DNA from: Spirochaetales bacterium
Lineage (GTDB): Bacteria > Spirochaetota > Spirochaetia > UBA9216
DNA length: 64,000 bases
Assembly: GCA_016839055.1 (NCBI GenBank)
Contig: JAEKNX010000009.1
Coordinates: 1 to 64,000, forward strand
Reading direction: 5' to 3'
Under the pieces are notes generated by a model. The model was not told the DNA's origin. It saw only the letters and a program-made list of their open reading frames with translations, and did no database searches. This document shows, one piece after another, positions 46,290 through 46,946 of the stretch. The translations under genes and the position numbers were made by a program. Position 1 is the first letter of the stretch; every line of letters begins with the position of its first letter.

Positions 46290-46946
46290 TTAGTTAGTGC
46301 CATCACCATGACAGTTGGGTTTCTTTATTCCGTTTAACAAGAGGTCAATCAGACAGGGCAGCATCGACGCAGGCTTTATGCCCTGTTCCTGTTCAAGATG
46401 CTCTCCGCGGATGACTATCCTCTAGGCAAGGGCAAGCATCGCATTCTCAATTGTCGCTGAGGCAAGTGCAACATCAATGTCACAACGAATTGAACCGTCA
46501 TCTGCCCCCTCCTTAATAAAAACCTAGAGCGGATTAGCCATAGCCTGAAGCATCGTCACGAAGCGGTCGGACAAGATATTATATGGATAGGCTCCGGTAA
46601 AATAATGATCAAACTCACCCATAAACCGTATTTCATCTTCCGAGAACTGATAATAATTTCCGGTCATAGATAGAAACTCGCTTACCTTCTCCAAACCGTT
46701 TTTCCCGGTGATTATTTCGGAGGCAATTTTCAGCTTCTCTATCATATCCTCGAAGATCCTGATCTCTATCTCGAAGGCAAGCTCTTCCTTAGTCTAATAA
46801 TAGCGGTACAATGTCCGGACGTTGAGGTCGGCACGGCCTGCAATATCGGGCATGCTGGTGCCCGCAAGTCCTTTTGAAATAAAGAGATCTTCGGCGCACC
46901 TTATTATTTCATCCCGCCTTTGGCTTTTCTAATATACCCTGCTCAT
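46290..46946 (-). pseudogene. TetR-family regulator frame interrupted by four in-frame TAG codons
   Basis: From ATG 46946 to TAA 46290 there are 218 codons in one frame. The helix-turn-helix is KSQRRDEIIRCAEDLFISKG..GRADLNVRTLYRYY, followed by TKEELAFEIEIRIFED, a helical ligand domain, and the typical end LPCLIDLLLNGIKKP. TAG occurs at codons 6, 51, 141 and 175 (46929-46931, 46794-46796, 46524-46526, 46422-46424). There is no TAA, TGA or frameshift. GGAGG precedes the ATG by 4 nt and a 22-bp palindrome lies 14 bp further up. Decay is the simplest reading; amber readthrough is the alternative. Confidence 0.8.
46296..46316. promoter_or_regulatory. Half-site copy of the tetR operator before lacZ
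   Basis: CATGACAGTT at 46307-46316 repeats exactly one arm of the palindrome at 46960-46981. The other arm here matches only in part (6 of 10). It lies within the last codons of the tetR frame, 35-44 bp before the lacZ start. Confidence 0.4.

Follow-up and report, generated by a model that had tools for sequence, protein, structure and literature searches.

Four In-Frame TAG Codons in a TetR-Family Gene Beside lacZ of a Spirochaetales Bacterium: Probable Recent Loss of a Redundant Repressor

Introduction

How does a regulatory gene that is otherwise free of defects come to be interrupted by four stop codons, all of them TAG? The question is raised by a TetR-family gene that lies directly upstream of lacZ in the window, the whole stretch of 64,000 nucleotides analyzed here, which belongs to contig C36 (179 kb) of a draft genome that totals 5.0 Mb in 43 contigs (97% complete, 3.8% contamination) and comes from a Spirochaetales bacterium. 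A first-pass annotation of the letters alone had put forward three explanations: ordinary decay, readthrough of the amber (TAG) codons by a suppressor tRNA, and transfer from a source, genome or phage, that reads TAG as sense. Decay gives the best fit, in view of an intact paralogous gene pair, the sense codons that homologues have at the TAG sites and the failure to detect any agent that reads TAG, and we consider it highly probable (about 0.85) that the window tetR encoded a redundant repressor and was inactivated recently. If this ordinary explanation is correct, the locus illustrates on a small scale how a duplicated module of enzyme and repressor loses one of its repressor copies; if the stops were instead read, it would show that amber-dependent gene regulation occurs in nature outside the pyrrolysine enzymes.

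A TetR-Family Frame Interrupted Only by TAG

Translation bears out the frame, its coordinates, its four TAG codons and the terminal TAA 17 nt ahead of lacZ, all of which had been described in the first-pass annotation; the strand, which that description lacked, is the minus strand (46946 to 46290). The frame comprises 218 codons, opens with an ATG preceded by a good ribosome-binding site and reads MSRVY(TAG)KSQRR...YRYY(TAG)TKEEL...NPL(TAG)VFIKEG...LALA(TAG)RIVIRG...GDGTN(TAA). Apart from the TAGs at codons 6, 51, 141 and 175 and the TAA at its end, it has no further stop, frameshift or indel, and under translation table 11 it is not translatable at full length. With TAG translated as Gln, the read-through protein matches the TetR_N profile (Pfam PF00440) over the whole domain (profile positions 1-47 of 47, 7.2e-13), and the helix-turn-helix recognized in the first-pass annotation is thereby upheld. 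The lacZ gene that follows, the presumed target of the window TetR, is intact, has all the GH2/LacZ domains and contains not a single TAG within its 1062 codons.

The locus resembles those of other TetR one-component repressors (PF00440) in its N-terminal helix-turn-helix that fits the full TetR_N profile, in the palindromic predicted operator ahead of its own gene and in its position immediately before the presumed target, as is usual for local TetR regulators. It differs from them in a frame broken by four TAGs, and the ligand and the regulation of the target are here putative.

Table 1. Positions of the interrupted tetR gene, its TAG codons and its neighboring features in the window
Feature	Position	Strand	Basis
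TetR-family repressor frame with four in-frame TAG, interpreted as a recent pseudogene	46290..46946	-	Translation; Pfam TetR_N; 69% amino acid identity to intact paralogue (G000:C43:294727-295353)
TAG codon 6	46929..46931	-	Codon alignment; paralogue CAG, Gln
TAG codon 51, just past recognition helix	46794..46796	-	Paralogue AAG, Lys; orthologues Pro, Ala
TAG codon 141	46524..46526	-	Paralogue CGG, Arg; orthologues Glu, Val
TAG codon 175	46422..46424	-	Paralogue CAG, Gln; Gln also in both lacZ-linked orthologues
Intact lacZ, GH2 beta-galactosidase, 1062 aa	43084..46272	-	Pfam Glyco_hydro_2_N/2/2_C, LacZ_4, Bgal_small_N; 73% identical to paralogous LacZ
Predicted primary operator O1, perfect palindrome AACTGTCATG-CT-CATGACAGTT	46960..46981		Just upstream of tetR; 10-bp arms
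Predicted second operator O2, TGCCATCACCATGACA	46298..46313		One mismatch from TGTCA-N6-TGACA

An Intact tetR-lacZ Pair in the Same Genome

The nearest relative of the window TetR is encoded in the same genome, where a paralogous tetR-lacZ pair (G000:C43:291518-295353, minus strand) has both of its genes intact. The two repressors are identical at 142 of 210 residues, or at 142 of 206 when the TAG sites are excluded (dN 0.21, with dS saturated). The C43 tetR also stands directly upstream of its lacZ, and the two LacZ proteins are 73% identical over 1051 residues. The loci are thus alike in gene order, in operator motif and in the identity of both products, and differ in that the C43 pair is without internal stops and has another neighborhood. 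Its divergent upstream neighbor is a gene that, named from its sequence, is uroporphyrinogen-decarboxylase-like.

Two more distant TetR orthologues that are linked to lacZ are likewise intact; they come from a different family within the phylum (L291, 44-46% identity) and from a SAR324 MAG (L246, 33-37%). No closer orthologue was found in the genomes of the genus, family and order, which are tiny groups of 5-7 genomes. An alignment of homologous TetR proteins, proposed in the first-pass annotation as a check, reveals that the paralogue and both orthologues are uninterrupted, with sense codons at all four TAG sites, so that by comparison with its intact homologues the window gene has suffered disabling mutations. 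Among these homologues, the residues at codons 51 and 141 vary. The earlier statement that each site lies a single base from TAG holds for codons 6, 51 and 175, to judge from the paralogue, and fails for codon 141, where CGG is two steps away.

Shared Predicted Operators and a Possibly Dispensable Repressor

The core of the predicted operator O1, TGTCA-N6-TGACA (46963-46978), is common to the two loci: the palindrome ahead of the C43 tetR differs from that of the window but retains this core. The predicted operator O2 overlaps the 3' end of tetR ahead of lacZ, and at the matching place the paralogous locus has a one-mismatch copy of its own. Exact matches to the core number five in the whole genome, compared with one for the reversed control pattern, and the recognition helices of the two repressors differ by one Leu/Val exchange (LNVRT[L/V]YRYY). 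As a perfect TGTCA-N6-TGACA palindrome is retained ahead of tetR, and a one-mismatch copy ahead of lacZ, at both loci, the C43 TetR may bind at both of them. We infer from these sequence features that the target sequence is common to the two proteins and that the intact repressor can take the place of the broken one.

The history that we favor starts from the two copies of the TetR-lacZ module in this genome. Each TetR would bind TGTCA-N6-TGACA ahead of itself and ahead of its lacZ, and would repress both genes until a galactoside-type ligand released it. Given the near identity of the recognition helices and the matching operators, both lacZ genes could come under the intact C43 repressor, which would leave the window copy dispensable; the shared predicted operators would then explain why the loss of a repressor was tolerated. 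The window tetR would subsequently have gained its nonsense mutations, which through a moderately improbable draw were all TAG, ahead of any visible accumulation of missense change or indels.

Stops Without Other Damage

How improbable is such a draw? The first-pass annotation had estimated the chance that four of four stops are TAG at about 1%. This figure is too low because it assumed equally likely stops, while the gene holds many codons that a single step turns into TAG (GAG 11, AAG 7, CAG 6). With the transition bias varied (kappa 2-8) along with the AT bias (1-2), TAG makes up 52-66% of the nonsense changes in the window tetR, and the probability that four given nonsense mutations are all TAG becomes 0.075-0.19.

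The claim that this set of stops is unusually clean stands, and more strongly than it was made. Nonsense accounts for only 2-4% of random changes in the window tetR, and hence four stops would normally be accompanied by some 80-140 missense changes. In a relative-rate test against the paralogue and the orthologues, no excess of missense change was seen in the window TetR, the ratio of window-derived to paralogue-derived residues being 8:14 when L291 is the outgroup and 16:24 when all outgroups are used; the intact lacZ gives a similar picture (21:29 and 48:56), and L246 alone leans in the opposite direction (15:9). All 18 strongly conserved TetR columns are intact in the window frame, and indels are absent from it. 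Old pseudogenes are expected to show excess missense change and indels; young ones need not, and a very young one would likewise have none.

Weighted over the number of missense changes that is compatible with the relative-rate data, the probability of at least three further nonsense mutations, given one, is 0.004-0.013, falling to about 0.001 when every one of them is required to be TAG. For a single gene taken at random, this excess of stops relative to missense change is a real oddity. The gene was, however, chosen from a scan for looking odd, and for this reason we do not treat the excess as a sign of function; a low probability of this kind is tolerable in a scan that selects oddities. 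As in other bacterial pseudogenes (for example, those treated in PMC11017572), the premature stops of the window tetR fall in a gene that could have become dispensable through redundancy; the window tetR is unlike them in that its stops are all TAG and come without indels or an excess of missense change.

Could the stops have been introduced by the assembly? The TAGs might be miscalled, or the sequence might be a chimera of strains, each without the repressor. The genome is indeed a draft of 43 contigs with 3.8% contamination, and both the assembler and the read depth are known to alter the number of pseudogenes with internal stops that are counted (PMC11017572). Nonetheless, four miscalls that all produce TAG in one gene of a 179-kb contig, beside 1062 clean codons of lacZ, would be an improbable coincidence, and we judge such an artefact to be very unlikely.

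Can the TAG Codons Be Read?

Only the ratio of stops to other damage speaks for stops that are read. The proposal, which we hold to be very unlikely, is that a missed suppressor tRNA or pyrrolysine system reads the four TAGs and that the level of repressor follows suppression. It would accommodate four stops of four being TAG without another defect, the residues of the paralogue (Q, K, R and Q), which suppressors tolerate, the lack of excess missense change in the read-through protein and the existence of a CheW gene that is likewise intact except for one TAG. Its more specific form, in which the lacZ repressor is made via amber suppression at all four sites by a suppressor tRNA that lies outside the draft and CheW is another gene of this kind, is slightly less likely still. 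Four suppressions in series would, in any case, yield very little repressor.

The search for a CUA tRNA or pyl genes that the first-pass annotation had recommended came back empty. The Rfam tRNA model finds 44 tRNAs in the whole genome; all were typed, and a CUA anticodon occurs in none of them. In 2.45 Mb, neither ARAGORN nor our own cloverleaf scan detected a CUA tRNA (the loosest setting of ARAGORN gave thousands of spurious cloverleaves, and its output was discarded). The list lacks tRNA-Ile(GAT) and tRNA-Ala(TGC), which reveals that the assembly, 97% complete, has gaps. PylS was not found: the best profile match scored 26.8 bits against a cutoff of 178, and a weak PylS-like synthetase similarity is also present in 13 of 14 control genomes. 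The anticodon-arm pattern of tRNA-Pyl scored below its reversed control, and these two negative results speak against a pyrrolysine system. Near-cognate suppression through 4-bp anticodon stems was also considered and rejected, the Gln, Lys, Glu, Tyr and Trp tRNAs all having canonical 5-bp stems; stems scoring 4 occur only in tRNA-Arg(TCG) and tRNA-Thr(TGT). The release factor RF1 is present (524.9 bits). With pyrrolysine or amber-suppressing genomes the window tetR shares its in-frame TAG codons; it differs in that no PylS or CUA tRNA was found here, in that the gene is no methylamine methyltransferase and in that four TAGs fall within one small regulator. With regard to a different stop codon, the start of a SelB-like elongation factor (GTSGHVDHGKT) at G000:C10 about 164400 (approximate coordinate, minus strand, L125 region) suggests that UGA may be used for selenocysteine in this organism.

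TAG terminates 290 of 1224 long ORFs (~24%), and its reported use as the terminator of yitT (42317-43165) and of the 5-alpha-reductase-like/steroid-dehydrogenase-like gene (41337-42245) is confirmed. Taken alone, this share is no bar to suppression, since bacteria that encode Pyl are reported to end ~21% of their genes with UAG (PMC9723677). Back-up stops are not enriched behind the TAG terminators, and none of the 150 ABC ATPase domains in the whole genome contains an internal stop. Genes split by one stop in a coding-potential survey were divided nearly equally among TAG, TAA and TGA, and were mostly ordinary gene junctions or antisense noise. In about half of the genome, this survey and a protein self-comparison yielded only one clean TAG interruption besides tetR. 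This is the CheW gene (L094:8017-8520; G000:C33:about 348017-348520, plus strand), which is complete but for a single TAG at DDE(TAG)YAI and has uninterrupted homologues in the family. Otherwise the self-comparison brought up a repetitive element of junk sequence and the decayed remains of an HsdM gene; other broken genes in the genome have TAA, TAG, frameshifts or several lesions. Given the tRNAs, PylS, RF1, the share of TAG ends, the rarity of interruptions and the TAG-free lacZ, neither recoding of TAG nor transfer nor suppression is supported.

Older Decay and Transfer as Unlikely Alternatives

A tetR that had long been drifting would have had time for the ~115-200 neutral substitutions that four nonsense codons normally need at 2-3.5% nonsense per change. 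The ~80-140 missense changes that this drift would add are nevertheless more than the 64 residues by which the gene differs from its paralogue in total, the window branch shows no missense excess (posterior 95% bound 15-18), and the gene has neither indels nor a damaged conserved column; we regard decay of this age as highly improbable. Transfer from a genome or phage that uses TAG as a sense codon, to which the occurrence of TAG as the only stop type within the frame would lend itself, is close to negligible, as it is contradicted by the adjoining lacZ, which has the same locus history and the same paralogous relationship yet lacks TAG where the tetR density of 4 in 218 codons would predict ~19, and as the protein closest to the window TetR is encoded by the paralogue in this genome.

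Other Broken Sequences

On contig G000:C36, a CheW remnant behind a chemoreceptor gene (about 148100-148340, minus strand) is broken by TAA and truncated. The remnant of HsdM, a type I restriction methyltransferase, lies on this contig as well (about 165015, minus strand) and has several stops in and around it. A repetitive element (G000:C17:101036-102502) contains multiple copies of a short coding-like unit and is full of TAA stops.
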